Notes under the pieces: model-generated
Seen by the model: the letters and a program-made list of their open reading frames with translations, nothing else
Told to the model about the DNA's origin: nothing
The model's database searches: none
Shown here: piece by piece, positions 9,514 to 37,552 of the stretch
Numbering within the stretch: the stretch's first letter is position 1
Layout: every line of letters starts with the position of its first letter
Origin: Emticicia sp. CRIBPO
Lineage (GTDB): Bacteria > Bacteroidota > Bacteroidia > Cytophagales > Spirosomataceae
Direction of reading: 5' to 3'
Length of the DNA stretch: 64,000 nucleotides
NCBI RefSeq assembly: GCF_009905725.1
Contig: NZ_JAAAKV010000008.1
Location: 248,001 to 312,000, forward strand
Program-made: the position numbers and the translations under genes

Positions 9514-9528
9514 ATTAAAAAATGCCTG

Positions 9529-10347
9529 TTATACCGTCACATTATTCTCTCTCAGAGCTTCGTTAAGAGAAGTTTTCAGGTCTGTACTTGCCTTTCTTTT
9601 GCCGATAATCAGTGCACATGGCACACCATAATCACCTGCAGGGAATGATTTCGTGATAGTTCCTGGTATAACTACCGAGTTTTCAGGTACTACGCCAATG
9701 TACTGAACCGGTTCGTCGCCTGTCACATCAATGATCTTCGAACTTCCGGTGATGGTAACACCCGCACCCAACACGGCTCTCTTACCGATATGAGCTCCTT
9801 CCACCACGATACACCTGGATCCGATAAAAGCTCCGTCTTCGATAATAACCGGCGAAGCCTGAGGTGGTTCCAATACACCACCGATACCCACGCCACCGCT
9901 CAGGTGAACGTTCTTACCGATTTGTGCACAGCTTCCGACGGTTGCCCAGGTATCTACCATGGTTCCTTCGTCCACATAGGCACCGATATTGACATAACTT
10001 GGCATCAGAATCACACCTTTAGCCAAAAAAGCACCATATCTGGCCACAGCCGGTGGAACAACCCTTACACCCAGGGCGTCATAATTATTTTTTAATTGCA
10101 TTTTATCATGATACTGGAAGATACCTGACTCCTGAATTTCCATTTTTCTTAGTGGAAAATACAGGATAATGGCCTTTTTAACCCATTCGTTAGTAACCCA
10201 GGTACCATCTTCACCGGGATTAGCAACTCTAAGTTCTCCTTTGTCTACTAATGCCACTACCTCATTAATTACTTCAACGGTTTTAGGGTCGCTTAGTAAC
10301 TCACGATTGTCCCAGGCTTTTAAAATAAGGGCTTCTTTCTCTTTCAT
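9529..10347 (-). CDS. dapD: 2,3,4,5-tetrahydropyridine-2,6-dicarboxylate N-succinyltransferase
   Basis: DapD transfers a succinyl group from succinyl-CoA to tetrahydrodipicolinate in the succinylase branch of lysine and meso-diaminopimelate synthesis, in the cytoplasm. The 272-residue length is normal. The N-terminal helical domain (KEKEALILKAWDNRELL) is followed by hexapeptide repeats that build the left-handed beta-helix, including GAYVDEGTMVDTWATVGSCA and IEDGAFIGSRCIVVEGAHIG. The C-terminus has the typical YGVPCALIIGKR. The gene stands alone on the minus strand with a strong terminator; the last enzyme of the same pathway, lysA, lies 38 kb away in this window. Confidence 0.95.
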   Translation of the reverse strand: MKEKEALILKAWDNRELLSDPKTVEVINEVVALVDKGELRVANPGEDGTWVTNEWVKKAIILYFPLRKMEIQESGIFQYHDKMQLKNNYDALGVRVVPPAVARYGAFLAKGVILMPSYVNIGAYVDEGTMVDTWATVGSCAQIGKNVHLSGGVGIGGVLEPPQASPVIIEDGAFIGSRCIVVEGAHIGKRAVLGAGVTITGSSKIIDVTGDEPVQYIGVVPENSVVIPGTITKSFPAGDYGVPCALIIGKRKASTDLKTSLNEALRENNVTV

Positions 10348-10525
10348 TGAACAAACTAAAGATTATATATATTAATTAAAACTTTACGAATAAGTGACTA
10401 TTTTACTGGTTTACAGGCTGTTGTAATGTTAAATATCAGGCAGTTCGCAAAAACGGGCATTTGATTATTTTAAGCCAAATTATATTCTGCACAACGGTTA
10501 CAACTATCAAAAATACGGTATTTTA

Positions 10526-10992
10526 ATTAGTAAAACCAGAAAATAGAAATACTAATATAAGTAGTATTGTTAGCAATCTAAGGATATCTGTAGTCATTCA
10601 ATAGTTAGTATTACGGGAGGCATCCCTCCTATTTTAATATACTTTTACTAATTATAACATGCTAAAGGCTTAAATATAGCAGATTAACAGGCACATATAG
10701 GGTCAAATTTTCTTATATAAGTCTTATTTACCCCTTACACCAGCTCAGGAATCCGGCGAATGCTTATCAATACTCTGGACTATCTTTACAGAGATAATTT
10801 GGAGCTATATTATAACGGGTGAGAATGGAATGAGGCTTTCAGGGCTAACTAATATGTTAAAATTGCTTGATTAATAGAATGTTACAGGCATAATTAGTAT
10901 TATAAACAGTGGAATGTTCAATCTCAAAGTAATTACTAACAGGATGAATTCCGATTGATTTATATATTACTAATTTGAATAGTAATACTAAT
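10526..10992. repeat. Cluster of TACTAAT/ATTAGTA heptamers with two hairpins
   Basis: The exact heptamer occurs at 10526, 10550, 10646, 10893, 10968 and 10986, with near matches at 10605, 10847 and 10933. Two sets form inverted repeats with seven-base centres: AATACTA/TAGTATT (10548-10568) and TATTACTA/TAGTAATA (10965-10987), which share the core TACTA-N7-TAGTA. Confidence 0.6.
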
Positions 10993-22825: not shown

Positions 22826-22865
22826 AAAAAAGGCCTTCAGAATTAATCCTGAGGGCCTTTTTTTA
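22826..22865. terminator. Bidirectional terminator between the M61 and epimerase genes
   Basis: AAAAAAGGCCTTCAG pairs with CTGAGGGCCTTTTTTT (one bulge) around a short loop, with A and T runs that serve both converging genes. Confidence 0.85.
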
Positions 22866-24047
22866 TTTTTCCAGCCTGTGCCAGATTTCCATGCAGGCAC
22901 GCCCGTTGTGATAGGGACATTTCCAGAAATTGACCTTATCTCTTGATTTCACAACATTCTGAGCGTCCAGGGTACCGAACCATTCACCGTTTTCGTGGTC
23001 AATCATGTATTTTTTTATCCAGTTCCAGGTATTTTCGGATTTTTCAAGGAAATTTACCTTGCCTGTCAGCTGATAAGCATTGAAAAAACCGACCATGGCT
23101 TCTGCCTGAGGCCACCAGTCTTTGTTGGTATGCAGCTTTTTGGTTTCCGGTTCGTACTCATAATAGATAGAGCCGTCTCCGGCCAGACCATCTGAAGCGG
23201 CCTTGGCCATTTCTATGGCGATTGTTTTACACCTTTTGATCAATTCTTCATTTCCGAGTACTTCTGCCGCTTCCCAGATGAGCCAAGAGGCCTCAATGTC
23301 ATGCCCGTATGAAATAATGGTTGATCTTGGCTCCCATTTATCTGTAAAGAACAAGGTCATCCTGTAGGTTTCGGGATCGGTGATGCGGTTGATCATGATT
23401 TCGAGACAATGCTTCAGGTGAAACTCGGATGATTTATCTTTCCAGACTCTATACAGATTGGTGAACGATTCCAGCAGATGTAAGTGGGTGTTCATAGACT
23501 TCCGGCTGTCTCCTTTGCTCAGGATGTAATCGTCGGTGTCGGACCAATCGTTGTTTAAGGCTTCCACATAGCCGCCGTTGACGGGATCAAAGCTGTGTTT
23601 TACAACCTGCCCGAAAATATCCTTCGCCAGATCCAGAACTTCCTGTGACTTTGAGATTTTGTAATATTCAGCCAGACCGTAAATCGCAAAAGCATGTCCG
23701 TAAATCTGTTTTTTCTTTTCGAGGGGTTCTCCTGTAGCTGTTACCGACCAGTAAACGCCGCCATTGAGGGGATCAACAAAATATTTCCTGATGTAATCAT
23801 ACGCTCTTTTGGCCATCACGGGATATTGCGGATCCGGGAAAAGCTGCTGGGCTGCAGCATACGTCCAAAGGATGCGGCTGTTGATCACAATGCCTTTCGG
23901 GGCTTTGGGATTGGGTTGATTAAGATGGTTTACAGCTCCGTAAAAACCGCCGTTCTCCTGGTCAATGTCGTATCTGATCCAATAATTGAGGATATTGAGG
24001 AGCTCGTTACGGACTTCCTGCCGGAAGTTGGTAAAGGTTAAGGCCAT
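22863..24047 (-). CDS. AGE-family epimerase, probably cellobiose 2-epimerase
   Basis: The protein belongs to the N-acylglucosamine 2-epimerase family with an (alpha/alpha)6 barrel. The motifs point to cellobiose 2-epimerase, which turns beta-1,4-linked glucose disaccharides into the mannose-ended epimers: GGFYGAVNH near the start, QIYGHAFAIYGLAEYY (about residues 113-128), SYGHDIEASWLIWEAA, WWPQAEAMVGFFNAYQLTG, and the C-terminal VNFWKCPYHNGRACMEIWHR. The histidines in these blocks are the expected acid/base residues. At 394 residues it has normal length and no signal peptide, so it is cytoplasmic. It lies next to the acidic-sugar locus but has its own transcription unit. Confidence 0.85.
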   Translation of the reverse strand: MALTFTNFRQEVRNELLNILNYWIRYDIDQENGGFYGAVNHLNQPNPKAPKGIVINSRILWTYAAAQQLFPDPQYPVMAKRAYDYIRKYFVDPLNGGVYWSVTATGEPLEKKKQIYGHAFAIYGLAEYYKISKSQEVLDLAKDIFGQVVKHSFDPVNGGYVEALNNDWSDTDDYILSKGDSRKSMNTHLHLLESFTNLYRVWKDKSSEFHLKHCLEIMINRITDPETYRMTLFFTDKWEPRSTIISYGHDIEASWLIWEAAEVLGNEELIKRCKTIAIEMAKAASDGLAGDGSIYYEYEPETKKLHTNKDWWPQAEAMVGFFNAYQLTGKVNFLEKSENTWNWIKKYMIDHENGEWFGTLDAQNVVKSRDKVNFWKCPYHNGRACMEIWHRLEK

Positions 24048-24354: not shown

Positions 24355-25629
24355 TTATTCAAAGAAAGGCACGCCGGGTGTGGCATACTTTTTCATTCCT
24401 TCTTCGTTGATTTCTACACCTACGCCGGGTTTGTTGGATAGGGTAATAAATCCGTTTTCGACCTGTTCTCCATCATAAGTGACGATTTCCTTAAACATAG
24501 GGTCTGTGTGGAAATAGGTCTGCCATTCCAAGATCAGGAAGTTTGGTACTGAGGCACAGACATGACAGGAAGCCATAGCCCCCAGGTATGAGGCCACCAT
24601 GTGCGGAGCAAACGGCACATAATAAAGATTGGACAGATTGGCAATTCTCTGCCCTTCGCCCAATCCACCGGCTTTTTGGAGATCGGGCATGATGATGTCT
24701 ACAGCTCCCGTTTCCAGCAACCTTCTGAATCCAAAGGCCAGGTAGTGATTTTCTCCGGCACAAATGGGTGTGCTGGTTGAATCTGTGATCTTTTTATAAG
24801 CTTCAGGGTTTTCGGCCGGGATGGGTTCTTCCAGCCACATCAGATTAAGGGGCTCGAGGAGTTTGGCTACTTTTTCGCCTGTGATGGCATCGTACCGGCC
24901 GTGCATATCCACACAAATGTCTATGTTGGGTCCTACGGCCTTGCGGGCGGCGGAAATCTGGTCGTACATCCTGGTTAATTCAGCCGGGCTGGCTGTCCAG
25001 TTGTATCTGTCATATTTATTGGGGTCATTGGCCTGATCAATGTCAAATTTGATGGCATTGAAACCCATTTTGACAGCATTTTTAGCGGCTGTGGCAAAGT
25101 CCTCAGGTTTGGGAAGGGTATTCTGATACAAGGCGGTATCCATGTAAACCCTGATTTTGTCACGGAATTTCCCGCCGAGCAACTGGTAAACGGGAAGATC
25201 AAGGGCTTTCCCGGCCAGATCCCAGAGGGCGGATTCTACGGCTGAAAGTACGGCCACATACATGCCCGATTGGGCTCCTTCAAAAAAACCTCCCTTGCGG
25301 ATGTCCTCAAAAAGACGGTGGACATTGAGCGGACTCTTGCCTTTGAGTCTTTGTCCGAATAGTTTGACCAGGTGGTAGGTACCCGGAGTGGCGTCAACGC
25401 CCTCCCCGCAGCCCCAGATGTTCTGGTTGGTGTGGATTTTGACGAAAAGGCTGTGTCCGCCCCTGATAAATCCACATTTGACGTCGGTGATTTTCAGGTC
25501 TGTGGGAATGGAATTTTTAGAGGTGTCCCGGATGGTCTCCTCGTATCCTTTTCCGAAACTTAGCATGGGAAGTGCGGCCAGGGCAGCCCCTGCGGCCATA
25601 AAATTTCTTCTTGATTGATTTTTTTTCAT
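24355..25629 (-). CDS. Exported enolase-superfamily enzyme (mandelate racemase type), sugar-acid dehydratase-like, copy 1
   Basis: Members abstract the proton alpha to a carboxylate, and many are acid-sugar dehydratases giving 2-keto-3-deoxy acids. Magnesium ligands are Asp241 (CVDMHGRYD), Glu267 (WLEEPIP) and Glu293 (CAGENHY). Lys194 (AIKFD) and His343 (APHM) are the likely catalytic pair, and Glu368 (ILEWQ) closes the barrel. The spacing, and the DMHGR motif, look more like sugar-acid dehydratases than racemases, but the substrate cannot be read off. The N-terminus has a Tat-type signal (SRRNFMAAGAALAALPML, residues 6-23), so the enzyme is probably exported folded. Its start is 12 bases after the stop of an RraA-type gene with which it forms a module. 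Confidence 0.85.
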   Translation of the reverse strand: MKKNQSRRNFMAAGAALAALPMLSFGKGYEETIRDTSKNSIPTDLKITDVKCGFIRGGHSLFVKIHTNQNIWGCGEGVDATPGTYHLVKLFGQRLKGKSPLNVHRLFEDIRKGGFFEGAQSGMYVAVLSAVESALWDLAGKALDLPVYQLLGGKFRDKIRVYMDTALYQNTLPKPEDFATAAKNAVKMGFNAIKFDIDQANDPNKYDRYNWTASPAELTRMYDQISAARKAVGPNIDICVDMHGRYDAITGEKVAKLLEPLNLMWLEEPIPAENPEAYKKITDSTSTPICAGENHYLAFGFRRLLETGAVDIIMPDLQKAGGLGEGQRIANLSNLYYVPFAPHMVASYLGAMASCHVCASVPNFLILEWQTYFHTDPMFKEIVTYDGEQVENGFITLSNKPGVGVEINEEGMKKYATPGVPFFE

Positions 25630-25641
25630 GATATTGTGATT

Positions 25642-26583
25642 TTACCAGGTCCTGGTTTTAAGTAATTCCTGAATTTGTTCTTTGGGTACCGGAAGTTTAT
25701 CAATGTGCTGGTTGAGCCATTGGGAAAAATCCCTTTCTATGTCGTCTGACCACCGGGAATCGATCTGTCCGGGTGTATATTTCTGCTCACGAAGCCTCTG
25801 ATGTCCGAAAAGGTCTCTTAACCTGACGATTTCGGAGGTTTTGACTACTTTTTCGGCCATGTGGGGCGGAATAAAAATAACACCCCCATCCCTGCCCAGA
25901 ACGACGTCACCGGGCATTACGGTGGCCTTACCGATCCTTGTCGGGGTATTGATCCCTATCAGCGTGGTGTTTAATTCGCCATCAGCATTGTTGAGGTGGT
26001 GAGAAGGGTGATAAGTTTTGAAAAATGAGGTAAACGAGCCTATTTCCTTCAGCCCGTTGATGTCCCGGACTGCTCCGTAATAGACGATGCCATTGCCTGA
26101 TTTCGTGAAAATGGAGTTTCCGAGGTTGTCACCGATGGTTGGGCCGTCTTCGTGGGCTTCAAACTGGTCTACGACATACACATCGCCTTTGACGAGCATG
26201 TCAATGGGCCAAGAGTTCTGGGATTTGATCCTTCCGTCTTTGTTGTGCCCTCGGTCGTCGGTTACCCGCTGTATATCCGGTCTGCCTGGCATAAATGTTG
26301 CGGTCAGAGCCCTGCCTACCAGTACACTGTCGGGGTTAATGGTTTGCCAGCCGTCTTCATACTGGTGTTTGTAGTTGGAGCCTTTCAATACAGCCCAGGC
26401 TTCTTCCAAAGTGACGAGTTTCATGCGTTTCAGAATTTCGTCAGGTACTTTCGGGCGGCCGTCGGGAAATCTTTCGCCTTTCCACTCGGGTGTCAGGAAA
26501 AGCAATTCTGCCTTACTGATCTGCTGGGAAAATGACGCGAATCCAGCCAGTAAAAAGCAAACAAGTGAAAATAATATTTTCAT
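25642..26583 (-). CDS. Exported RraA-family protein (aldolase-like), copy 1
   Basis: The RraA fold includes metal-dependent 4-hydroxy-2-oxo-acid aldolases that release pyruvate, and also non-catalytic RNase E inhibitors. The conserved GDNLGN is at residues 151-156 and the Arg173-Asp174 pair (YGAVRDINGL) is where the aldolases bind substrate and metal, so activity is likely. A Sec signal peptide covers residues 1-20 (MKILFSLVCFLLAGFASFSQ), which is unusual for this family. An N-terminal extension with FPDGRPKVPDE is shared with the second copy at 29278. The gene directly precedes the Tat-exported enolase-superfamily gene, which supports dehydration and aldol cleavage in one compartment. Confidence 0.83.
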   Translation of the reverse strand: MKILFSLVCFLLAGFASFSQQISKAELLFLTPEWKGERFPDGRPKVPDEILKRMKLVTLEEAWAVLKGSNYKHQYEDGWQTINPDSVLVGRALTATFMPGRPDIQRVTDDRGHNKDGRIKSQNSWPIDMLVKGDVYVVDQFEAHEDGPTIGDNLGNSIFTKSGNGIVYYGAVRDINGLKEIGSFTSFFKTYHPSHHLNNADGELNTTLIGINTPTRIGKATVMPGDVVLGRDGGVIFIPPHMAEKVVKTSEIVRLRDLFGHQRLREQKYTPGQIDSRWSDDIERDFSQWLNQHIDKLPVPKEQIQELLKTRTW

Positions 26584-26635
26584 GATTTTGGTATTTTGAG
26601 TAAATAATTGAAAAGTAAAGGCACAGAGAGTCCAT

Positions 26636-26689
26636 TTGTTGAAACAAACCTTTCAGGAGTATATACTCCCGTTAAGTTTGTTTCAACAA
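26636..26689. promoter_or_regulatory. Nested palindrome between BASS and RraA genes
   Basis: TTGTTGAAACAAAC (26636-26649) and GTTTGTTTCAACAA (26676-26689) form a perfect 14-bp inverted repeat. Exactly centred between them, with six bases on each side, is the perfect 14-bp palindrome GGAGTATATACTCC (26656-26669). There is no T-run, so it looks like an operator and not a terminator. It lies 53 bases upstream of the RraA copy 1 start. Confidence 0.6.
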
Positions 26690-26713
26690 TGAAGATGCTG
26701 ACCTGATAGAGAA

Positions 26714-27652
26714 TTATTCAGGTATGGTAGATCCTTCGGGCTGCTTCTTGCTCCACCAACTGGCTAGTAAAGAGCCGGTTATGTTCATGATAGGTCCGAA
26801 AAGTGCAGGTGCCAGGCCGACAGTGGCCAGTTTACCCATTTGAAGTGCCAGTCCCGATGCCAGCCCACCGTTTTGAAGTCCCACTTCTATTGCCACTGTT
26901 CTGCAGTCCTGCTCAGGGAGTTTAAAGGCTCTTGCCGACCAATAGCCAAATAAAAATCCTCCGAGATTGTGTAAAAGAACCGCGACGATCAGTAAAATAC
27001 CGACACTGGAAAGCGAAGCCTGGCCGGCTGCTGTAATGACTACCAGAATAAGGGCAATGCCGACCATCGAAATCAAAGGCAGATAGCTCTGAAGAAAGGC
27101 TGCTACGGGCTTAAGGTATTGGTTGATGATGAAACCGATCCCCAACGGAATAATGATGATTTTCATGATATCCCATACCATTGCCAGAAAATCAATCTCC
27201 ACATATTGTCCGCCCAGCAATTTCATCAGCAGGGGTGTCATCAATGGTGCCATTAAGGTCGCAAAGGTCGTAATGGTAATTGACAACGCTACATTGGCTT
27301 TGGCAATCAGGGCCATCACATTAGAGGCAAGGCCACTCGGGCTGCTTCCTATGAGAATGATCCCGGCCGCAATTTCCGGAGGGAAACTGAAAATTTTTGT
27401 CAGACCGAATCCTAAAAACGGCATGATGGCAAACTGACAGCATAAGCCGATAATTACGGGCTTAGGAGTTTTAATTATTCCGGTAAAGTCATTGAAGGTC
27501 ATGGTGGTACCCATGCCGAACATGATGACCTGGAGCAAAGGAACTATCAGCTTACTAAGCTTATAGTCTCCTATCTGAATAAAATATTCCGGGAAATTAT
27601 AGGCAATGACAACAGAAATAAGAATACAAATGGTGTACAAATAATTTTTCAT
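26714..27652 (-). CDS. BASS-family (bile acid:sodium symporter type) transporter
   Basis: The 312-residue protein consists of about nine to ten hydrophobic segments, beginning YLYTICILISVVIAYNFPEY. It carries the family motif region GTTMTFNDF (about residues 54-62), IGSSPSGLASNVMALIAKAN and GLQNGGLASGLAL, the crossover motifs of the BASS fold. The family includes sodium-driven carriers for pyruvate, pantoate, 2-keto acids and other monocarboxylates as well as bile acids. Between two RraA/enolase-superfamily modules, import of the small acid made outside the inner membrane is the most reasonable role. This is inference: substrate residues cannot be read here. Confidence 0.85.
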   Translation of the reverse strand: MKNYLYTICILISVVIAYNFPEYFIQIGDYKLSKLIVPLLQVIMFGMGTTMTFNDFTGIIKTPKPVIIGLCCQFAIMPFLGFGLTKIFSFPPEIAAGIILIGSSPSGLASNVMALIAKANVALSITITTFATLMAPLMTPLLMKLLGGQYVEIDFLAMVWDIMKIIIIPLGIGFIINQYLKPVAAFLQSYLPLISMVGIALILVVITAAGQASLSSVGILLIVAVLLHNLGGFLFGYWSARAFKLPEQDCRTVAIEVGLQNGGLASGLALQMGKLATVGLAPALFGPIMNITGSLLASWWSKKQPEGSTIPE

Positions 27653-27730
27653 CTGGTTGAATTTGATTTTGGGACAATTTAAGTGCTCAGTATATTTTCC
27701 GCTTCACTGATGTGGGAAATATCTGTTTTT

Positions 27731-29227
27731 TTAACTCCAGCTTCTGTCCCAGGTATCTATTTTGTCCCATTCGTTGGTTGGGGCAAAATACAATTCACCC
27801 GATTTCAAATGTTCTTTAACCACTTTTTCGTTGATTTCGACTCCCAAACCCGGTGCATCAGGCACTTTGGCAAAACCTTTGTTGTAGATCGGTTTTTCGA
27901 TTCCTGTCACCAGGTCTTCCCACCACGGGATGTCCATGGAGTGGTGTTCGAGGGCCACGAAGTTTTCTGTTGCCGCTGCACAGTGGACATTCGCCATGAA
28001 AGAAATCGGTGTGCCGGCAAAGTGCATGGCCATCGGAATACCTCTTTCTTCGGCATAATCCCCGATTTTTTTGGTTTCAAGCAGACCTCCGGAACTTGCC
28101 AGATCCGGCTGAATCATATCCACTGCCCGGGCGTCTACCAGTTTGATGAATTCTTCTTTGAGGAAAATGTCTTCGCCTGTCAGGGTTGGTGTGTCAATGG
28201 CGTCCGAAATTTGTTTCCACTGGTCGGTATAAAACCACGGGATCATGTCCTCAAGCCAGGCCATCTGGTATTTATCAAGGGCTTTTCCAAGACGGATAGC
28301 CGTATTGACATCAAAATGGCCGAAGTGATCGGCTGCCAGGGGCACCTCATATCCTACGGCGTCCCTTACTTTGCTGACGTGGTTGGCCAGGATGTCGATC
28401 CCTTTGTCAGTGATCTGAACCCTGGTAAAAGGGTGTTTGGTCTGGGCGTAACTCCTGGCAGAACCTTTGGTTTCAGGAGGATTGCCCCATTGCCTTTTTA
28501 CATCCCAGGCCCCTGCTCCTACCAAAGCTCCGGGAACGTCAGCAAGCAGCTCAATACCAAAGTCCATTTTAAGGAATGTGAGCCCGGTATCGTAGCGTTC
28601 TTTCATCTTTTTGGCAAAAACATCAGAGTCTTTATCCTGAGGAGTGTCACCGTAGCAACGGATGTAGTCACGGTATTTGCCGCCCAGCATCATGTATGCA
28701 GGAACGCCGAAAGCTTTCCCGGCCAGATCCCACAGGGCCATTTCAACCCCGCAAACCCCACCGGCCGCACGGCCCTGGCCTCCGAATTGTTTTATTTCTT
28801 TAAATATTTTCTCTACGTTACAAGGGTTTTTGCCCAAAAGCCTGCTCTTAAGAAACAGACCATATCTGGCACTTGCCCCGTCCCTGATTTCTCCGTAACC
28901 CGAGATGCCCTGGTTGGTATCAATCCTGATGATCGGACAGGTCATGGGGGCTCCGGCTACGACAGCTATTCTCAGGTCTGTGATTTTCAGTTCAGAAGGT
29001 TTTCCTGCCCTGCTTACTTTTTGGGTGACATAGGCGATTTCTTCGGCAGGATTTTTATCGAGCATGTATCCGAGACTCAGTCCGCCTAAAGAGGCTTTGC
29101 GGATGAAATCGCGGCGGTTGTCTCCTCCGGATGCCGGAGCAGGTTTGTGGTTTTCAACAGGTGTGTCTTCAACGGGACCCGAAGGAATGTGTCCGTTGAA
29201 TTTAAAGCGATCCAGGATTGGTTTCAT
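27731..29227 (-). CDS. Exported enolase-superfamily enzyme (mandelate racemase type), copy 2
   Basis: This 498-residue protein has the capping domain (YGEIRDGASARYGLF) and barrel of the enolase superfamily. Metal ligands are Asp300 (LAADHFGHF), Glu326 (WLEDMIP) and Glu352 (TGEDIF); the likely acid/base residues are Lys220 (FLKMDFG) and His402 (MHFAGTP). It differs from copy 1 in length and active-site surroundings, so the two probably act on different acids. A twin-arginine motif (NRRDFIRKASLGGLSLGYML) is at residues 37-56, after an unusual hydrophilic lead of 36 residues, so export by Tat is likely but less certain. Residues 19-35 are Pro-rich. It follows the RraA copy 2 gene by 50 bases. 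Confidence 0.83.
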   Translation of the reverse strand: MKPILDRFKFNGHIPSGPVEDTPVENHKPAPASGGDNRRDFIRKASLGGLSLGYMLDKNPAEEIAYVTQKVSRAGKPSELKITDLRIAVVAGAPMTCPIIRIDTNQGISGYGEIRDGASARYGLFLKSRLLGKNPCNVEKIFKEIKQFGGQGRAAGGVCGVEMALWDLAGKAFGVPAYMMLGGKYRDYIRCYGDTPQDKDSDVFAKKMKERYDTGLTFLKMDFGIELLADVPGALVGAGAWDVKRQWGNPPETKGSARSYAQTKHPFTRVQITDKGIDILANHVSKVRDAVGYEVPLAADHFGHFDVNTAIRLGKALDKYQMAWLEDMIPWFYTDQWKQISDAIDTPTLTGEDIFLKEEFIKLVDARAVDMIQPDLASSGGLLETKKIGDYAEERGIPMAMHFAGTPISFMANVHCAAATENFVALEHHSMDIPWWEDLVTGIEKPIYNKGFAKVPDAPGLGVEINEKVVKEHLKSGELYFAPTNEWDKIDTWDRSWS

Positions 29228-29277
29228 AAATAAGGTTGAATTTTATAGTTAATATTAAGGTTTAAAGACATCAGTAT

Positions 29278-30210
29278 TTACCAGTTTCTTTCTTTCATGA
29301 TCTGGTCTAGCTGCTCTTTTGACATGGGCACTTTGCCGGGATTATCCTTGATCCACTGCATAAAATCTGCTTTAATGGCTTCTGTCCATGCCTGGTCTAT
29401 TTCGCCGGGGGTGTATTTTCCTTCTCTCAGACGCTGGTGCCCGAACTGGTCTCTGAGTCCTACAAACTCAGAAGTAATGATCAGGTTTTCGGCCAGGTGG
29501 GCGGGAATAAAGATGACGCCTTCTTCCTTACCAAGAATGAGGTCACCGGGTAAAGCCGTTGCCCTGCCTATCCTGATCGGGCAGTTGATGCAGGTCATCA
29601 TCATGTCTTTGATGTATGAAGGGTCAAAACCGCGTACAAATCCCACAAAACCATCAATGGCTTCCAGCCCTTCAAGGTCGCGGATACCACCGTCGAAGAC
29701 CACACCTGTTTTTGACTTGGCGTAAATTGAATTGCCCAGGTTATCGCCTATGAGTGTTCCGTCTATGATTTTACCGAAACCGTCGGCCACGTAAACATCG
29801 CCGGTTTTAAGGACGTCGATCGGCCATGAGTTGGAAGAACCTTTCCTGTTCTCCACTTTTCCTTTTTCTTTGATTTTATTGTCTACATCCGGACGGGCGG
29901 GCATATACTGTGCCGTAACAACCCTTCCGGCCAATGCTTTTTTGGGATTTATGATTTTCCAGCCTGCTTCAAACTGGTTATTGTAGCCTTTGTTTTTCAG
30001 ATAACCCCAGGCTTCTTCAATAGAGATGTTGGCCAGGCGTCTGATCAGGTCATCGGATACTTTGGGTCTGCCGTCCGGATCCCTGGGGCCCGTCCATTCG
30101 GAGGAATAAACTTTGATTTGTTCCGGAGTAGCCTGGATCTGCTGTGCCTGAGCCTGATACGACATGCCGGCGATGGAAAATAACGCCGTAATTTTTAAGG
30201 TGAGTCTCAT
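29278..30210 (-). CDS. Exported RraA-family protein (aldolase-like), copy 2
   Basis: The 310-residue protein has a Sec signal peptide (about residues 1-23, ending MSYQAQAQ) and the RraA core with GDNLGN at 155-160 and Arg177-Asp178 (DGGIRDLEGL). It is a clear paralogue of the gene at 25642: both carry PDGRPKV in the N-terminal extension, SSNSWPID or SQNSWPID, and FGHQRLRE with TPGEID or TPGQID near the end. Likely reaction: retro-aldol cleavage of a hydroxy-keto acid to pyruvate plus an aldehyde, in the periplasm. It starts the RraA-enolase-superfamily-BASS run downstream of susD, separated from it by a hairpin. Confidence 0.83.
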   Translation of the reverse strand: MRLTLKITALFSIAGMSYQAQAQQIQATPEQIKVYSSEWTGPRDPDGRPKVSDDLIRRLANISIEEAWGYLKNKGYNNQFEAGWKIINPKKALAGRVVTAQYMPARPDVDNKIKEKGKVENRKGSSNSWPIDVLKTGDVYVADGFGKIIDGTLIGDNLGNSIYAKSKTGVVFDGGIRDLEGLEAIDGFVGFVRGFDPSYIKDMMMTCINCPIRIGRATALPGDLILGKEEGVIFIPAHLAENLIITSEFVGLRDQFGHQRLREGKYTPGEIDQAWTEAIKADFMQWIKDNPGKVPMSKEQLDQIMKERNW

Positions 30211-30280
30211 TGATTATAATTAATTATGGTTGAATAAAATCTAGAATAAATATAATCTTTATCAGTGGATTTAAAGAAGA

Positions 30281-30304
30281 AACCGGATAGAAATCTATCC
30301 GGTT
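30281..30304 (-). terminator. Hairpin between susD and the RraA copy 2 gene
   Basis: AACCGGATAG and CTATCCGGTT form a perfect 10-bp stem with a four-base loop. On the minus strand it is followed by a T-rich but interrupted run, so it is probably a partial terminator that lets less transcript pass into the enzyme genes. Confidence 0.6.
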
Positions 30305-30322
30305 CTCGTGTTTCAAGCGGGT

Positions 30323-31843
30323 TTATTTATCCCACCAGACTTTGGTATCCAGGTCATCTGCTCCCTGACGTCCTATGGCTTCTTTGACATGGACGCTGTT
30401 GACAGAAATTTCAGAGTTAGGGTAAGTTAACCTTCTGATGAAATCACCTTTTATACTTTTGCCCGGGAAGGGGTTCGGTGTTAATTTAGGAAAACCGCTT
30501 CTTCTGAAATTAGCGAACGCCTCAGGTCCGTTAAGGAAAGAAGATACCCAGTATTGGGTGTTGATCTGCTCTAAAGCAGAAGCACTTACATACGGATGGG
30601 CGGTCAGGTAGGCAGTGATAGCGTCCGGAGCGATAGCAGAATTGGCATCGTACAGGGCCATTTGTTCCATGTGGGCTCTCACGCCCTTGTTGTAATAGTC
30701 TTCAGCAGAACCGGTGGTCCAGCCTCTCTGGGCAGCTTCAGCCAACAATAACTGGGTCTGGGAATAAGTCACCAGGAACATCGGCGAGGTGGTTTTTACC
30801 AGACGGGTACGGTCTACCTGGGTATAATCGTAGAAACTGGCCAGTTTTGCGGCGGCTACAGGGGTTTTGATAGAGCCGTTGTCATATCCGAACGGCATAC
30901 CGATCTGTATGGCCGGGTCGGTGTTGCCTTTGGCAGGAATCATATCAGATCCTGACAAAGCACCTACATAGCGAATGGCGATCGACTTCAGTCTCGGATC
31001 ATTGTTCTTCTGAAGAAAATCAACAAACGGGGCTCCCATAAAGAAGTTGTTAGCCTCTGTGGCATTGAGCATCTGCCCGATGCCGTTGACATAGTTGGCA
31101 TCATGTTTTATGAAGCAATTGTCGGCATTCGACGCAAAGACACCACCCTGCACGGCCTTGGCTACGGTAGACTGGGCTGTGGCGGCGTCAACCTTGCTCA
31201 GTCTCATACCGGCCCTCAGCAGCAACGAATAGGAAAGTTTTTTCCATTTGCTCACATCCCCGCCGTATAAAACATCGGCGGTTTCGATGGTTTTGGATGC
31301 ATCAAGGGCCGCAGCGGCTTCTGTAAGCTCTTTGATGATGTCGGTATAAATGACCTGCTGGGTCTCATACTTCGGCAAAACGATCTGATCAGAATAGCCC
31401 TTTCCTGCTTCTGAGTAAGGAATTTCGCCATAAGTATCCGTCAGTACCATAAACGCGTAAGCCTGCAGTATCCTGGCCATATTATAAAGGTTGGTCCTGG
31501 CCGGGGCATCTTTGGTGCTGGCAATCACGTCCTTGGTGTTCCTGATGACGTTACGGTAGTACCTCTGCCAGTTGGTCATGGTACCTTCGCGGTTGTCCTG
31601 GTTAAAATTGGCTCCGGCCAGTACGCCCGAGTTAGGAGAGACCATTTGCTGAACAATCCCCACTTCATAGGCCACCACACCACTCTGAATAGAGGTGTTG
31701 ATCGTGGCGTTATTTAAGGTAAAGACGGGATTGATGGCTGTTGCGGCGGTTTTGTTGATGTTGAGTTCATCAAAACCCTTATCACATGCCGTAATAAAAA
31801 CGCAGCTGACAGATATAAAAAACAGACTGATTATTTTTTTCAT
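30323..31843 (-). CDS. SusD/RagB-type outer-membrane lipoprotein
   Basis: SusD-like proteins are surface lipoproteins that bind the nutrient and close over the SusC channel like a lid. The lipobox is FITAC with Cys20 as the lipidated residue, after MKKIISLFFISVSCVFITAC. The sequence fits the SusD-like group 2: DKGFDELNINKTAATAINP after the lipobox, QAYAFMVLTDTYGEIPYSEA in the TPR-like helix region, and EAFANFRRSGFPKL near the C-terminus. Length 506 is normal. It lies 5 bases after susC and is co-transcribed with it. The genes downstream suggest that the ligand is an acidic sugar or an oligosaccharide that contains one. Confidence 0.9.
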   Translation of the reverse strand: MKKIISLFFISVSCVFITACDKGFDELNINKTAATAINPVFTLNNATINTSIQSGVVAYEVGIVQQMVSPNSGVLAGANFNQDNREGTMTNWQRYYRNVIRNTKDVIASTKDAPARTNLYNMARILQAYAFMVLTDTYGEIPYSEAGKGYSDQIVLPKYETQQVIYTDIIKELTEAAAALDASKTIETADVLYGGDVSKWKKLSYSLLLRAGMRLSKVDAATAQSTVAKAVQGGVFASNADNCFIKHDANYVNGIGQMLNATEANNFFMGAPFVDFLQKNNDPRLKSIAIRYVGALSGSDMIPAKGNTDPAIQIGMPFGYDNGSIKTPVAAAKLASFYDYTQVDRTRLVKTTSPMFLVTYSQTQLLLAEAAQRGWTTGSAEDYYNKGVRAHMEQMALYDANSAIAPDAITAYLTAHPYVSASALEQINTQYWVSSFLNGPEAFANFRRSGFPKLTPNPFPGKSIKGDFIRRLTYPNSEISVNSVHVKEAIGRQGADDLDTKVWWDK

Positions 31844-31848
31844 ATTGA

Positions 31849-34800
31849 TTAGAATTTAACATTTAAATTGAAGCCTAAACTGCGGGTGGTCGGAAGGCCC
31901 GTAGATTCCATACCTACGAGGTTATCAGAACTGTACCCGAATGATTCAGGGTCAATGTTATCCACCCATTTCTTCAACATTAAAACATTGTTGGCTACGA
32001 AGCTGAGTTTAACGCCTTTGATCGCGGATTTGGCCGGAAGGAATTTGCCGAAATCATATCCTGCGGTAATCTGACGAAGTTTCCAGTACCCGCCGTTGTA
32101 AATTACCGGTTCCACAAGGGCAAGTGACCTGACCACCGACCAGTAGTCCTGCACTGCCGCTTTAGCAGCATTTACTTCGCCTTTTTCATTTACACCGACA
32201 CCCACAACCCCGCCTTCGCGGCCTTCAAGTGTCGCCTGGTGCAATCCGTGTCTGTAGAGGTTAAAGTTTGTACCGGAAAGCATCTTGTTGCCCAATTTAA
32301 AGTCTACTAAAGCAGACAGAGAGATGCCTTTGTAAACAAAGGTATTGTTGATCCCTCCTACCCATTTAGGCAAGGCACTTCCGAAAGAGATGAGGTCGGT
32401 GGTTCTTAAAGGAATACCGTTGCCGCCGAAAATCTTTCTGCCCTGATCGTCTCTTTTGTAACCAAAACCATAGATCTGGCCCATTTCCTGACCTACTACC
32501 TGTCTTAGTTCACCGTTGAAAACGTGCGTTCCGACAGTAATTCTTTCGCCCGGAGTGTCGGTTAGCAGGCTTAATACTTTAGTGATGTTATAAGAGCCGT
32601 TGAAGCTGATATCCCACTGGAAATCCCTGGTCTTAACCGGAACAAAGTTGATCAGCATTTCCATACCCTGGTTTCTGCTTTTACCGCTGTTGATCAGCGT
32701 GGTAATGAAGCCGGAAGCATCCGAAATCTGGGCAGATACGATCTGGTCAGTCGTAATTTTCCTGTAAACGGCTGCGTCGATGGTTACCCTGCTGTTAAAC
32801 AATCTAAGGTCAATACCGATTTCAGATTCCGCTGTTCTCATAGGTCTCAGGCCCGCATTCGGAACAGTGGTTCCCTGAGGTCCGCCGACCGGCTGTGCAG
32901 CTCCGGCAGGATTAGGGAATAAGTTGGCATTGATACCATAGAAAAGATTGTTGGCATAAGGGCTCACGTCGGTATCGCTACCCACTTGTGCATAAGCTGC
33001 CCTGATCTTACCGAAAGACAACCATTCAGGCGTAGAATCAAACGCCTGGGAGAAAACAAAACTACCGGAAACAGACGGATACAAAATGCTTCTGTTCTCA
33101 GGAGATAGTGTTGAGAACCAGTCGTTTCTGGCGGTTACGTTTAAGAAAAGGAAGTTTTTGTAAGAAAACTCTCCCGAACCGTAAACGGAGTTAACCGCCC
33201 TTTCAGACAAGCCGTAAAGCGGATCCTTTACCCTGCCGTTCATCACGGTGTAAAGGCCGCGTACAACAAAATCAGTTACCTGTACACTGTTGAGGTCCGA
33301 TCTTCTGTACATCTGGTTACCACCCAAGTTGAAGTCAAAGCCGAAATCACCGAATTTCTGTGTTCCGGAAATCAGGATGTCGGTGTTGGTTTCTCTGAAT
33401 CTTCTCGATTCCTGGGTGTACATACCGTTCACAAAACCTGCAGGAGCAGCTGCCAGAGAGGCGTGGCCTGTAGGGAAGTTGTTATAATCCTGGTCTCTTG
33501 ACCAGTAATCCTGTCCTACCCTGACCTGGGCAAATAACCACGGCAAAATGTTGTATTTCGCTGATAGGTTACCAAAGATCCTGTCGCGTCTGATGTTCTG
33601 AAACTGTTCCGCGATTACCCAGTAAGGGTTGGTACGGTTCATAAATCTCGAATAAACATACTCATTGCCGGCCGCATTGTATTTTTTCTGATCAAGCAGG
33701 TCCAGCGGCATAGAATTGGCCATGTTGGCAATAGACGTGGGAATCGAGTTGTCCTGGTTGGCTATGTTCGGCGGGTTTTTGTTGTACTCGTTAGAATAGT
33801 TGATGTTACCCGAAAAACTCAGTTTTTTGGATAAATCGTAGCCAAAGCCTAAGTTAATAGTCTTTCTGTTAAAGGTATTGTTAGACACAACCCCTTTGTT
33901 GTCCATGTTTGAAATAGACAGGTTAAATCCTCCTTTTTCTGTGGCTGACGAAAGGCTGATGGTGTTCGTAAAGTTGGAACCGTTTCTGTAAAATTTCTTA
34001 ATGCGGTCATATACAGGTTCATACGGCACTGAAACACCGTCAAAAAGCACCTGGGTCATGCCCGGCTGGAATTTCTCTCCGAACGACCACTGACCTGAAG
34101 TCGGATTGGGTGTCGTAGGTCTTATCCCGTTCTCACCCTGTCCGTAAACGTATTGGTAATCTGTGAAGTCAAGCGGGGTTTCGTTCGTAAAGTTCGTATT
34201 ATAACTTACGCCTATTCCTTTGCTGGTTCCTCTTGATTTTGTGGTGATCATCAATACACCGTCTTTCGCCCTTGATCCGTAAAGGGCCGCGGCCGTAGCT
34301 CCTTTCAAAATCGTCATGCTTTCAATGTCATCAGGGTTGATGCTCGAAAGCCCGTCACCACCATCAGAGGTATTACCGCCGCCTCTCACGCCAATGGAGT
34401 TATCTGCTCCGGCATTATTGGGATTGGTTCCGAAGTTCGTATTATCAATAGGAACACCATTGATTACGATTAAAGGGTTGTTCTGACCCGAGATGGACGA
34501 CTGACCCCTGATCCTGATTTTTGACGTTCCTGCAGGACCGGTACCCATGCCTGAGATGTTGACACCCGCAATTTTACCTTGCAGGGTATTCACAAAATTC
34601 GGCGATCTGTTTTCTGTGATCTGCTCAGCACTCACGGTCGTCGTCGAATAGCCCAGTTTCTTTGCATCCTTTTTGATACCCAATGCGGTGACCACGACCT
34701 CGTCAAGGTTTTGAGCGTCTTCATCCAGACTTACATTCAGAATGGTCTGATTGGCCAGTTTTATCTCTGAGGTCTTGTATCCCAGATAGCTGAAAACGAG

Positions 34801-35010
34801 GACGGCTCCCGGGCTGGCATTGATACTGAATTTTCCATCGGTATCAGAGGTTGTACCTGTGAAGGTGCCTTTGACGGTGACTGAGACGCCCGGGATGGTT
34901 GCATTATCTTTCGATGAACTGATCGTTCCTTTGATGTTTTGTGCCATGGCTGCCCCGGACAAAACACAAAAAGTCAGAAAAACATAAAAAGATTGTAGTT
35001 TTTGCTTCAT
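31849..35010 (-). CDS. SusC/RagA-type TonB-linked outer-membrane transporter
   Basis: SusC proteins are TonB-dependent channels that import glycans or peptides with their SusD lid. The 1053-residue protein has a signal peptide (about 1-23), a carboxypeptidase-D-like regulatory domain (about 25-100, NIKGTISSSKDNATIPGVSV), the TonB-box region with LDEVVVTALGI, a plug domain (to about residue 230, containing GVPIDNTNFG and ESMTILKGATAAALYGSRA), and a barrel of about 800 residues that ends in LGFNLNVKF with a C-terminal Phe. No anti-sigma-contacting N-terminal domain is present. It is the first gene of the locus and faces the divergent AraC gene across an intergenic region with inverted repeats. 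Confidence 0.93.
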   Translation of the reverse strand: MKQKLQSFYVFLTFCVLSGAAMAQNIKGTISSSKDNATIPGVSVTVKGTFTGTTSDTDGKFSINASPGAVLVFSYLGYKTSEIKLANQTILNVSLDEDAQNLDEVVVTALGIKKDAKKLGYSTTTVSAEQITENRSPNFVNTLQGKIAGVNISGMGTGPAGTSKIRIRGQSSISGQNNPLIVINGVPIDNTNFGTNPNNAGADNSIGVRGGGNTSDGGDGLSSINPDDIESMTILKGATAAALYGSRAKDGVLMITTKSRGTSKGIGVSYNTNFTNETPLDFTDYQYVYGQGENGIRPTTPNPTSGQWSFGEKFQPGMTQVLFDGVSVPYEPVYDRIKKFYRNGSNFTNTISLSSATEKGGFNLSISNMDNKGVVSNNTFNRKTINLGFGYDLSKKLSFSGNINYSNEYNKNPPNIANQDNSIPTSIANMANSMPLDLLDQKKYNAAGNEYVYSRFMNRTNPYWVIAEQFQNIRRDRIFGNLSAKYNILPWLFAQVRVGQDYWSRDQDYNNFPTGHASLAAAPAGFVNGMYTQESRRFRETNTDILISGTQKFGDFGFDFNLGGNQMYRRSDLNSVQVTDFVVRGLYTVMNGRVKDPLYGLSERAVNSVYGSGEFSYKNFLFLNVTARNDWFSTLSPENRSILYPSVSGSFVFSQAFDSTPEWLSFGKIRAAYAQVGSDTDVSPYANNLFYGINANLFPNPAGAAQPVGGPQGTTVPNAGLRPMRTAESEIGIDLRLFNSRVTIDAAVYRKITTDQIVSAQISDASGFITTLINSGKSRNQGMEMLINFVPVKTRDFQWDISFNGSYNITKVLSLLTDTPGERITVGTHVFNGELRQVVGQEMGQIYGFGYKRDDQGRKIFGGNGIPLRTTDLISFGSALPKWVGGINNTFVYKGISLSALVDFKLGNKMLSGTNFNLYRHGLHQATLEGREGGVVGVGVNEKGEVNAAKAAVQDYWSVVRSLALVEPVIYNGGYWKLRQITAGYDFGKFLPAKSAIKGVKLSFVANNVLMLKKWVDNIDPESFGYSSDNLVGMESTGLPTTRSLGFNLNVKF

Positions 35011-35077
35011 AGTTAACGCTGGTTTTGGTTATTTTACTTAATCTTTCAAAAATCTAGAATTATTTCTATAAAAACTT

Positions 35078-35125
35078 TCATTATTTTACGGTGAATGATT
35101 TTGTAAAAATGATTCCCGGATCATT
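35078..35125. promoter_or_regulatory. Two overlapping inverted repeats in the susC-araC promoter region
   Basis: TCATTATTTTAC (35078-35089) and GTAAAAATGA (35103-35112) form a long imperfect repeat. AATGAT (35108-35113) and ATCATT (35120-35125) form a perfect repeat around TCCCGG. They lie between the divergent susC and AraC genes, a plausible binding site for that regulator. Confidence 0.4.
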
Positions 35126-35148
35126 TGCCATATTAAACCCCTTAATGG

Positions 35149-36030
35149 ATGTCATCATTTACTCTGAATAAAGAAAAATCGGCTGAATTGCAGGCTTTTC
35201 CTTATATTATTGAGTTTGAGAGGGTCAAAAACTCCTCCATGAAACACCGTTGCTTCGAGGTAGAAAAGGTGAAGTATTTTTCAATTTATTTTTTCCTGGA
35301 GGGAAAATTTGAATGGATGGTCAATGATGCCATGCAGCACTTTTTCCCGAATGACGTCCTGATAGCCAAACCCAACGAAACACTGGGCAACAGGGAGGGT
35401 ATGCTGGAAGTAGGATTGTTTTATAAACTCTCCCTTGAAATTGAAAATTTTGATGAAGATGATGATTTTACCTTCGGAAAATGGACCAAACTGGCAGAGT
35501 CTGACATGAAGATCATCTGCAAGCTGCTGGCCCTTAAAAAACCGCTGATATTACAGGATTTCAGAAAGGGAATCGAGCTTTTTCAGAGCCTGGAATATGA
35601 ACTGATGAATGAAGAAATCGGGTATATAGTCAGGGTCAACTCGATTATTGAAGAAATGATCATTAAATCGGCCAGGGCGGTCAGCAAACAGGAAAGCCAC
35701 CGCTTTGATTTCCAGAAAATGTTTCAGAAACTTGACCTGATGCTCAGGGAAAACCTGTCACATCACTGGACTGTCGGTGAGATGGCCGGCGTGGTGGGTC
35801 TGGGTAATACCGCCTTTACGGAAAAACTGAAATACTATTCCGGTTTTTCGCCTTTAAACTACCTCATCAATTTAAGGATTTCAGAATCGATCAGGCTCCT
35901 CAAAACCACCAATATTTCAATGACGGAAATAGCTTTGGAAACAGGATTTTACTCCTCACAGCATTTTTCAACGACCTTTAAAAAACTAACCGGGTATTCC
36001 CCTAAAATTTACAGAAAAAACAGTTTGTGA
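35149..36030 (+). CDS. AraC-family transcriptional regulator
   Basis: The C-terminal 100 residues form the double helix-turn-helix of AraC: LSHHWTVGEMAGVVGLGNTA for the first, and ISMTEIALETGFYSSQHFST then FKKLTGYSPKIYRK for the second. The N-terminal 170 residues look like a cupin-type ligand domain (FSIYFFLEGKFEWMVNDAMQ). Length 293 residues, cytoplasmic. It is divergent from susC, and its stop codon is separated by one base from the kinase start, so regulator and kinase are translated together. Its likely role is induction of the susC/D locus by a sugar acid, which is inference from position. The start ATG at 35149 fits the family length. Confidence 0.88.
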   Translation: MSSFTLNKEKSAELQAFPYIIEFERVKNSSMKHRCFEVEKVKYFSIYFFLEGKFEWMVNDAMQHFFPNDVLIAKPNETLGNREGMLEVGLFYKLSLEIENFDEDDDFTFGKWTKLAESDMKIICKLLALKKPLILQDFRKGIELFQSLEYELMNEEIGYIVRVNSIIEEMIIKSARAVSKQESHRFDFQKMFQKLDLMLRENLSHHWTVGEMAGVVGLGNTAFTEKLKYYSGFSPLNYLINLRISESIRLLKTTNISMTEIALETGFYSSQHFSTTFKKLTGYSPKIYRKNSL

Positions 36031-36031
36031 T

Positions 36032-37552
36032 ATGGAATGTGTAATTACGATTGAAATTGGAACATCTGCGGCTAAGGTCGTGGCTTTTGATTACCACGGC
36101 AACGAGATTGTGTATAAAAAAGGTTCTTACCCGACATTTCACCCACAGCCGGACTTTAGTGAGCAGGATCCTGAACAGGTATTTATTACGGTACTTTTTG
36201 TGCTTAAGAGCATTCTTAACGATCCGGCATTCAATAAAAAATACGTGGTTACTTCCATTTGTCTGAGTTCGGCGATGCACAGCGTTTTGCCGGTCGATAA
36301 CAAGGGTGTACCGCTTGGAAACGCCATTATCTGGGCTGACAACCGGGCCGATGAAATTGCCAACGAACTTAAAAACTCATCCGTCGGCAAGCAGATTTAC
36401 CAGAATACGGGAACACCGATTCATGCGATGTCTCCCCTCGCTAAAATCACCTGGATTAAAAGACAGGACCCCAAAAGATTTGAAAAGACTTCCAGGTTCA
36501 TTTCGCTCAAGGAATATTTTATTTTCCAGCTCACCGGCGAATACATGATTGACTACAGTCTGGCGTCGGCTACAGGTTTTTTCAATTTCAATACGCTCGC
36601 CTGGGAAGAAGAATCGCTGAAGTTTGCGGGCGTGGATAAAAGCTATTTCTCGACCCCCGTCCCTATTTTTGATTCTTCGCTGAAAATCAAGGATACATTT
36701 ATCAAGTCGCTGAGGCTCCTGCCCAATACCCGGCTGATCATCGGAAGTACAGACGGCTGCCTGGCCACCCTGAGCTCAGGAGTGCTGAATGACAGGCAGG
36801 CCACCATCTCCATCACCTCAAGCGGAGCGGTAAGGACTGTAGGAAAAGAATGCCTGACAGATGAAAAAGGCCAGTTTTTTAATTATTTGCTGGATAAGAA
36901 TTTCTTTATTTCCGGCGGACCTACCAACAACGGTGGTGTGGCCTTTGAATGGGCAACCCGGCTGCTTGGCTATGTGGATGTCACCAACGAATTTGAAAGT
37001 TCATTCAATAAAATCCTGAACGAAGTGTCAAAAGTAAAACCCGGATCTGAAGGGGTGTTGTTTTTGCCCTATTTATTGGGAGAGCGGTCGCCGATCTGGA
37101 ATTCGGATGCCAGAGGCATGTTTTTCGGTCTGAATATCACGCACGAACCCAAGCATCTGATCAGGGCTACCATCGAAGGGATCATTTTTGAAATCCTGAG
37201 TATCGGCAATGCCATCCGCAAATACCGCAGTTTTGACTATCTGCATGTGACGGGAAGCTATGCTACGCACCCTTTCTGGGCACAATTGATTTCTGATATA
37301 TTCGGGATGACCGTTTCGGTGAGCAACTACAGGCAAAGCTCCAACCTGGGGGCTGCCATGGTGGCTTTGACTTCTATGGGGGTGTATGACAACCTGGAAT
37401 CAGCCGGCGACCTGGTCATCAAAGGAATAGACCTGCATCCTTCTATGGACAACAACAAAGTCTATGACAAATACCATAGGATTTTCGAAAGCCTGACCCA
37501 GAAACTCGGGGATGAATTTCACGAGATATCGAAATTGCAGAATAACGACTGA
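36032..37552 (+). CDS. FGGY-family carbohydrate kinase, gluconokinase type
   Basis: FGGY kinases phosphorylate sugars and sugar acids. This one resembles the gluconokinase group: GTSAAKVVAFD (residues 9-19) for the phosphate loop, DFSEQDPEQVF, IWADNRADEIA, GTPIHAMSPLAKITWIK (about residues 128-144), GSTDGCLATLSSGVL with the catalytic Asp, and TNNGGVAFEW. The likely reaction is gluconate to 6-phosphogluconate with ATP, feeding the pentose phosphate or Entner-Doudoroff route, but another aldonate is possible. Length 506, cytoplasmic. It overlaps translationally with the AraC gene (gap of one base) and ends at a strong bidirectional terminator. Confidence 0.85.
   Translation: MECVITIEIGTSAAKVVAFDYHGNEIVYKKGSYPTFHPQPDFSEQDPEQVFITVLFVLKSILNDPAFNKKYVVTSICLSSAMHSVLPVDNKGVPLGNAIIWADNRADEIANELKNSSVGKQIYQNTGTPIHAMSPLAKITWIKRQDPKRFEKTSRFISLKEYFIFQLTGEYMIDYSLASATGFFNFNTLAWEEESLKFAGVDKSYFSTPVPIFDSSLKIKDTFIKSLRLLPNTRLIIGSTDGCLATLSSGVLNDRQATISITSSGAVRTVGKECLTDEKGQFFNYLLDKNFFISGGPTNNGGVAFEWATRLLGYVDVTNEFESSFNKILNEVSKVKPGSEGVLFLPYLLGERSPIWNSDARGMFFGLNITHEPKHLIRATIEGIIFEILSIGNAIRKYRSFDYLHVTGSYATHPFWAQLISDIFGMTVSVSNYRQSSNLGAAMVALTSMGVYDNLESAGDLVIKGIDLHPSMDNNKVYDKYHRIFESLTQKLGDEFHEISKLQNND

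Follow-up and report, generated by a model that had tools for sequence, protein, structure and literature searches.

Non-phosphorylative Entner-Doudoroff-type pathways dehydrate sugar acids to a 2-keto-3-deoxy acid, which is then converted without phosphorylation. These pathways run in the cytoplasm. Periplasmic oxidation of sugars is known, but carbon skeletons are normally broken down in the cytoplasm. Here, we describe a locus of Emticicia sp. CRIBPO (Bacteroidota) at positions 24355-37552 of a 64,000-nucleotide stretch of contig NZ_JAAAKV010000008.1 (hereafter the window), which belongs to a genome assembly of 6.06 Mb. The locus contains two modules, each consisting of an RraA-family gene (RraA1 or RraA2) and an enolase-superfamily gene (Enol1 or Enol2), together with genes for SusC, SusD, a BASS-family carrier, an AraC regulator and an FGGY-family kinase. 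In contrast to the known pathways, both enzymes of each module bear an export signal. Judged from its sequence, the locus probably serves to take up one or two sugar acids and to degrade them outside the cytoplasm without phosphorylation. This one locus appears to contain two exported versions of the dehydrate-and-convert step, and the pair of genes is conserved across Bacteroidota.

Related enzymes and carriers have been described in other settings. The RraA family includes the HMG/CHA aldolase, whose genes lie among aromatic genes, whereas RraA2 lies among sugar-acid genes. FlDet of Flavobacterium shares with the proteins described here the RraA family, an origin in Bacteroidota and a 2-keto-3-deoxy sugar acid as substrate (PMC8563752). 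However, FlDet has 237 residues, its native N-terminus starts at Met with no cleaved signal, and an alginate lyase gene lies alongside its gene; a paired enolase-superfamily gene is not mentioned in the available part of that report. Plant relatives of the BASS carriers are reported to transport pyruvate, glycolate, pantoate and 2-keto acids, and the bacterial BASS protein ASBT-NM binds pantoate (PMC10645422).

The sequence set for comparison comprised the window, 80 loci from a genome scan and 20 further stretches (101 loci), all within Bacteroidota. The scan loci are the best 80 of at least 562 confirmed matches, so that neighbour counts among these and the window (81 loci) favour close relatives. 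Of the 37 matches in a phylum sample, 21 lie in the 20 further stretches. These stretches were chosen by hand rather than at random, mostly for having no Enol2 beside RraA; three do have Enol2. The phylum sample consisted of 395 genomes spread over Bacteroidota, with the Emticicia genome counted, and a threshold of E <=1e-60 was applied to Enol2. Neighbour families were checked with hidden Markov models on examples, and the remainder were assigned by BLAST clustering.

All four enzymes carry export-type N-termini, as the preliminary description of this DNA had claimed. RraA1 (25642..26583, minus strand) begins with MKILFSLVCFLLAGFASFS and RraA2 (29278..30210, minus strand) with MRLTLKITALFSIAGMSYQAQA; in each case QQ follows. 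Both are Sec-type peptides that end in S or A, and Gln comes directly after the likely cut. They thus match the Q-rule reported for Bacteroidetes, in which Gln follows the signal cleavage site (PMC5837995). Enol1 (24355..25629, minus strand) begins with the twin-arginine type sequence SRRNFMAAGAALAALPML, and Enol2 (27731..29227, minus strand) has the sequence NRRDFIRKASLGGLSLGYML of the same type, preceded by 36 residues. TatC is encoded in the same genome, and RRxF is accompanied by a hydrophobic stretch, making Enol1 and Enol2 predicted substrates of the twin-arginine translocation (Tat) system.

These signals are conserved in relatives, which was one of two points on which the preliminary description could have failed. 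Export signals were judged by motif rules and not by a cleavage predictor. An initial Sec+Q rule was passed by 75/82 RraA2 and 22/23 RraA1 sequences (97/105). The misses were inspected and looked alike, and the rule was then loosened so as to require, ahead of the DGRP motif, a hydrophobic stretch and then [AGSC]Q. In this form it holds for 125/125 RraA relatives of at least 280 residues, the two shorter ones among the 127 sequences being excluded. A control form that scans the first 70 residues selected 103/105 RraA proteins versus 213/849 other open reading frames (ORFs) of the same sequences; by family, it selected SusC in 31/38, SusD in 1/39, GntK in 0/18, AraC in 0/20, IlvD in 0/12, PfkB in 1/3 and zinc dehydrogenase in 2/3. 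RRxF is found in 96/98 enolases (24/24 Enol1 and 72/74 Enol2) versus 17/849 other ORFs, and the two Enol2 exceptions are ORFs missing their N-terminus. The twin arginine of Enol2 ORFs is preceded by 15-67 residues, although the upper end of this range may be inflated because ORFs were taken from the first start. The long n-region itself is real, since close relatives share its sequence: MKxxLDRFKFNG is common to them, and MTPSQKxLxKLGLK is found among others. In the AlphaFold model of Enol2, the predicted local distance difference test score (pLDDT) is below 50 over residues 1-56.

The pairing of the genes is also conserved. Enol2 adjoins RraA2 in 73 of the 81 loci, on the same strand in 59 and divergently in 14. 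Within the phylum sample, 15 genomes have Enol2 and 24 have RraA, and all 15 Enol2 genomes have RraA. By coordinates, RraA lies within 400 bases of Enol2 in 14 of these 15; the fifteenth has Enol2 at a contig end. The RraA2-Enol2 pair is therefore widespread yet uncommon in Bacteroidota. In the window's own family, 109/150 genomes match RraA2 at E <=0.001, a count that includes distant RraA proteins. Enol1 lies within 1.5 kb of RraA1 in 34/35 cases; the one other case is a fragment at the end of a contig. The expectation that the genes are kept together in other Bacteroidota was thus borne out, and chance clustering is rejected by the RraA-enolase adjacency across loci and the phylum sample. 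The gene order of the window recurs in three loci (L025, from Lacihabitans sp. CS3-21, L027 and L029), and in five more with SusCD inverted (L065, L066, L084, L093 and L098). Of the 81 loci, 38 have a relative of SusC, 39 of SusD, 20 of AraC and 17 of the kinase.

The two modules, which had been described as duplicated, are both present but are not equivalent copies. Module 2 occurs alone in 54 of the 101 loci, module 1 alone in 11, both in 22 and neither in 14, although a partner may be hidden by contig ends where a module stands alone. Identity is only 46% between RraA1 and RraA2 and 31% between Enol1 and Enol2, so the two pairs appear to be old paralogues; a recent duplication of one module is not supported. 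In the enolase tree, Enol1 and Enol2 are grouped with weak support (88/70, with long branches flagged), and the modules may therefore have arisen by joint duplication or by separate recruitment. In L120, a 220-residue ORF (10054-10716) has an N-terminus like that of exported RraA2 and a C-terminus like that of Enol2. This fused ORF is a natural deletion remnant of an RraA2-Enol2 pair and stands beside RraA1, Enol1 and BASS genes.

The non-equivalence of the modules is also seen in the active sites of the enolase-superfamily (MR_MLE) proteins. The reference is the D-galactonate dehydratase DgoD of E. coli, in which D183, H185, E209, E235, D258 and H285 are the catalytic and metal-binding residues. 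Enol1 retains all six in 24/24 sequences. Enol2 retains five of the six in 67/67; H185 is replaced by Tyr (37) or Phe (30), and His residues one before and two after this position, again in 67/67, give the variant motif DH(F/Y)GH. With six of six versus five of six DgoD positions, Enol1 is a good candidate for an acid-sugar dehydratase and Enol2 a divergent candidate. Unlike DgoD, both are predicted to be exported by the Tat route. Their scores against the galactonate dehydratase equivalog PRK14017 (247 and 197 bits) fall below its cut-off of 311 bits. The closest solved structure for both is 2QQ6, which is listed without a tested function. The 3,6-anhydro-galactonate cycloisomerase 5OLC is among the lower-ranked structure matches, so that cycloisomerase chemistry may also be considered for these proteins by analogy.

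Both RraA proteins belong to their family by Pfam PF03737 (cut-off 24.5 bits), with 65.0 bits for RraA2 and 59.3 for RraA1. The RraA2 model shows the RraA fold with a mean pLDDT of 88.5, and Foldseek matches it to 5X15, 3K4I and 3NOJ. The last of these is the HMG/CHA aldolase (E 4.4e-13, 17% identical). G155, D156, R177 and D178 of RraA2 align to its G101, D102, R123 and D124, and R123 and D124 are reported to act in enolate stabilisation and metal binding (PMC5065237). RraA2 therefore shares the fold and the aligned Arg/Asp site with this aldolase but is predicted to be exported and is about 70 residues longer. The D-x20-R-D motif, which we take to be a form of the catalytic motif of the RraA family, is found in 121/127 RraA sequences. 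Together with the Arg-Asp pair, it places RraA2 by sequence in the class II RraA/HMG-CHA family. In L123, tandem exported RraA paralogues (8215-10227) have the Asp of D-x20-R-D changed to Ser or Ala, and similar paralogues are found in L085 and L112. These are possibly altered or inactive partner subunits.

The substrate of RraA is suggested by an exchange of the enzymes beside it. In six loci (L038, L043, L114, L115, L116 and L119), RraA lacks an enolase match within 5 kb. Instead, all six encode a DgaE-like lyase dependent on pyridoxal phosphate with an RR start, an amidohydrolase with a Sec+Q start, an exported RraA and a BASS carrier. A Rid-family protein is additionally encoded in L043, L114, L116 and L119, and five of six Rid ORFs have an RR start. 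The amidohydrolases score 452 (L081) and 436 bits (L116), above the cut-off of 371. Genes resembling those for pyrroloquinoline quinone (PQQ) sugar dehydrogenases or gluconolactonases are found near some of these loci. DgaE-type lyases convert glucosaminate-6-phosphate into a 2-keto-3-deoxy acid via an enamine, and Rid proteins hydrolyse such intermediates. A third type of front end is seen in L124, where two genes of the UxuA (mannonate dehydratase) family with RR starts lie upstream of RraA2. This locus also carries Enol2 twice, BASS and a PQQ dehydrogenase, and in L070 and L122 a gene near RraA has a BLAST match to one of its UxuA-family genes. At least one front end (enolase, DgaE-like or UxuA) lies within 5 kb of RraA in 75/80 scan loci and 17/20 chosen stretches. 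Since three enzyme families with one product type occupy the same place, the substrate of RraA is likely to be a 2-keto-3-deoxy sugar acid. The replacement of the dehydratase by another exported family that forms 2-keto-3-deoxy acids also lends independent support to a sequence of dehydration, RraA and BASS. As a separate observation, Rid-family (YjgF-type) proteins with twin-arginine-like N-termini in L043, L081, L114, L116 and L119 are apparently exported enamine hydrolases.

In the pathway that we propose, a sugar acid, or a glycoside of one, would pass the outer membrane by way of SusCD. Tat-exported Enol1 would dehydrate the acid to a 2-keto-3-deoxy acid in the periplasm, and Enol2 would catalyse the same dehydration on a differently configured substrate. 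The Sec-exported, metal-dependent RraA partner would then convert the 2-keto-3-deoxy acid, with retro-aldol cleavage into pyruvate and an aldehyde as the most likely reaction. The acid formed would cross the inner membrane through BASS, and a sugar or acid that accompanies it would be handled in the cytoplasm by the FGGY kinase. The preliminary description had placed dehydration and cleavage in the periplasm, followed by import of the keto acid. The best supported reading is that dehydration takes place outside, that RraA converts the product and that BASS imports the acid. Gene content, export signals, pairing, catalytic positions and the exchange of front ends are observed in the sequences; the periplasmic location, every reaction including the aldolase role, the substrate and a BASS cargo of pyruvate rather than the 2-keto-3-deoxy acid are inferred. 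If the substrate is right, aldol cleavage is the probable reaction of RraA and dehydration a rather unlikely one. More tentatively, and at somewhat less than even chances, the relatives together may form a pathway of the Entner-Doudoroff type in Bacteroidota that is complete, modular, extracytoplasmic and non-phosphorylative. Its interchangeable exported front ends would be an enolase-superfamily dehydratase for aldonates, a set of sugar dehydrogenase, lactonase, amidohydrolase, DgaE-like lyase and Rid for amino-aldonates, and a UxuA-type dehydratase. These would feed one exported RraA aldolase, and only a three-carbon acid would be imported by BASS.

A number of observations weigh against this proposal. 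Five full-length RraA relatives and one fragment are without D-x20-R-D. K147 of 3NOJ is reported to be important, since kcat drops to 0.014 per second from 15.6 when it is replaced (PMC5065237); it aligns to the non-conserved D202 of RraA2, although the alignment of this loop is uncertain. With this Lys not kept, RraA2 is not taken for an HMG/CHA aldolase as such. The BASS gene is found in 41/81 loci and lies within 5 kb of RraA in 36/80 scan loci. In six loci, a major facilitator superfamily (MFS) gene of one cluster is found instead, and the one member that was scanned is similar to D-galactonate transporters, at 264 bits against a cut-off of 395. None of the three front-end types was found within 5 kb of RraA in eight loci (L048, L062, L073, L080, L095, L112, L126 and L127), although in L073 and L095 the sequence ends soon after RraA. 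Several family assignments are below NCBIfam cut-offs: the DgaE-like proteins of L081, L038 and L114 (192-199 bits, cut-off 385), the Rid proteins of L081 and L114 (59-63 bits, cut-off 106; that of L043 passed Pfam) and the PQQ dehydrogenases (453 and 438 bits, cut-off 833).

Other readings of the same genes can be compared with the proposed pathway. RraA may be a dehydratase, with or without decarboxylation, in the same exported pathway, so that a product of the 2-oxoglutarate-semialdehyde type would be imported in a Weimberg-like scheme. FlDet speaks for this and against an aldolase, since it is a dehydratase/decarboxylase that converts 2-keto-3-deoxy-glucarate into alpha-ketoglutaric semialdehyde and is inactive on 2-keto-3-deoxy-gluconate (KDG) (PMC8563752). 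IlvD/EDD-family genes in 12/81 loci and FAH-family genes in 4 point the same way; the IlvD/EDD protein of L066 scores 848 bits against an L-arabinonate dehydratase model with a cut-off of 882. However, those of L046, L047, L050 and L051 start like another subgroup and may be biosynthetic, and none of the 12 has an export signal by the Sec+Q rule. FlDet itself has 237 residues, was purified from cell extract and, in the available part of its report, acts on an aldarate-derived substrate and ignores KDG, whereas the DgoD-like, DgaE-like and UxuA front ends point to aldonates. We consider this version unlikely. It is less probable still that the dehydratase works outside and BASS imports the 2-keto-3-deoxy acid itself, RraA having a different task such as the conversion of an epimer or a side substrate. 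Such an entry is suggested by L124, where a KDG- or KDGal-kinase-like gene (213 bits, cut-off 440) lies near the PQQ dehydrogenase, Enol2, BASS and RraA2. Nevertheless, RraA is retained in the six loci where the dehydratase is exchanged, and the window's locus has no KDG-kinase-type gene. ASBT-NM, according to the available part of the report, does not bind ketopantoate (PMC10645422), which disfavours a 2-keto acid as BASS cargo and so counts against the proposed pathway as well. Given the varied cargo of plant BASS proteins on the one hand and the binding of pantoate but not ketopantoate by ASBT-NM on the other, the carrier family is by analogy no guide to the RraA reaction.

A role in the modification of envelope or extracellular glycans, rather than in catabolism, would suit the long conserved n-region of Enol2, which has no known role. 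However, SusCD, a carrier, an AraC regulator and a sugar kinase share the cluster, and sugar-dehydrogenase and gluconolactonase-like genes lie near some relatives, which makes this role very improbable. The idea that the N-termini are not functional signals and that the enzymes stay in the cytoplasm is hardly credible. The Pfam TAT_signal model speaks for it and against export, with a score of 19.9 for Enol1 (cut-off 22.7) and no match reported for Enol2. The signal features are nevertheless present in 125/125 RraA and 96/98 enolases, and the Sec+Q rule selects no GntK, AraC or IlvD protein in the same loci, though it selects a few PfkB and zinc dehydrogenase proteins. A cytoplasmic location is rejected on these conserved signals.

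Among the matches listed from the open-access literature (subscription papers and preprints were outside the scope), there was no description of an exported RraA paired with an enolase-superfamily enzyme. As far as we have seen, each chemical step of the proposed pathway is of a known kind, and the novelty lies in where the steps take place, in the pairing of the genes and in the exchangeable front end. If the proposal is true, a function can be given to a family of exported RraA proteins, the known relatives of which are annotated as RNase regulators, methyltransferases or aldolases of aromatic pathways, and SusCD systems without an adjacent glycoside hydrolase gain testable substrates. If the modular pathway is also true, central-type carbon metabolism starts outside the inner membrane in these bacteria, with exported RraA as its marker enzyme.

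The remaining genes complete the inventory of nine given in the preliminary description, all of which were recovered by ORFs and family profile searches. SusC (31849..35010, minus strand) is a TonB-dependent transporter of the SusC/RagA family, and SusD (30323..31843, minus strand) has a start that resembles that of a lipoprotein. The BASS/SBF-family carrier (26714..27652, minus strand) has PanS as its best NCBIfam match, but at 250 bits it is below the equivalog cut-off of 400 and is only PanS-like. From SusC through Enol1, the intergenic gaps between ORFs are 5 to 130 bases. The AraC regulator (35149..36030, plus strand) is divergent from these genes and is followed by the kinase (36032..37552, plus strand). 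The earlier label of the kinase holds at the level of the FGGY family; the protein is gluconokinase-like, but its score against gntK_FGGY (419 bits) is below the NCBIfam cut-off of 648, so that no specific substrate is assigned to it. A terminator-like hairpin with an 11-bp stem (30280..30305, minus strand) lies between susD and RraA2, and a second one lies 3' of the kinase. Such hairpins are nearly as frequent by chance (22 sites versus 17.8 expected in shuffles).

Other genes of the window also have relatives near the modules. A cupredoxin-ended protein with a Sec+Q start is encoded at 41252-43255, and eight Dyadobacter loci have relatives of it upstream of SusCD-RraA2-Enol2. The adjacent product (43262-44977) has a weak likeness to 3-keto-disaccharide hydrolases (20.4 bits, cut-off 26.8). 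The two are possibly an electron-transferring sugar dehydrogenase. An AGE-family epimerase with a Sec+Q N-terminus is found beside the modules in L034, L036, L037, L039 and L040; the window's own AGE gene (22863-24047) has no such N-terminus.

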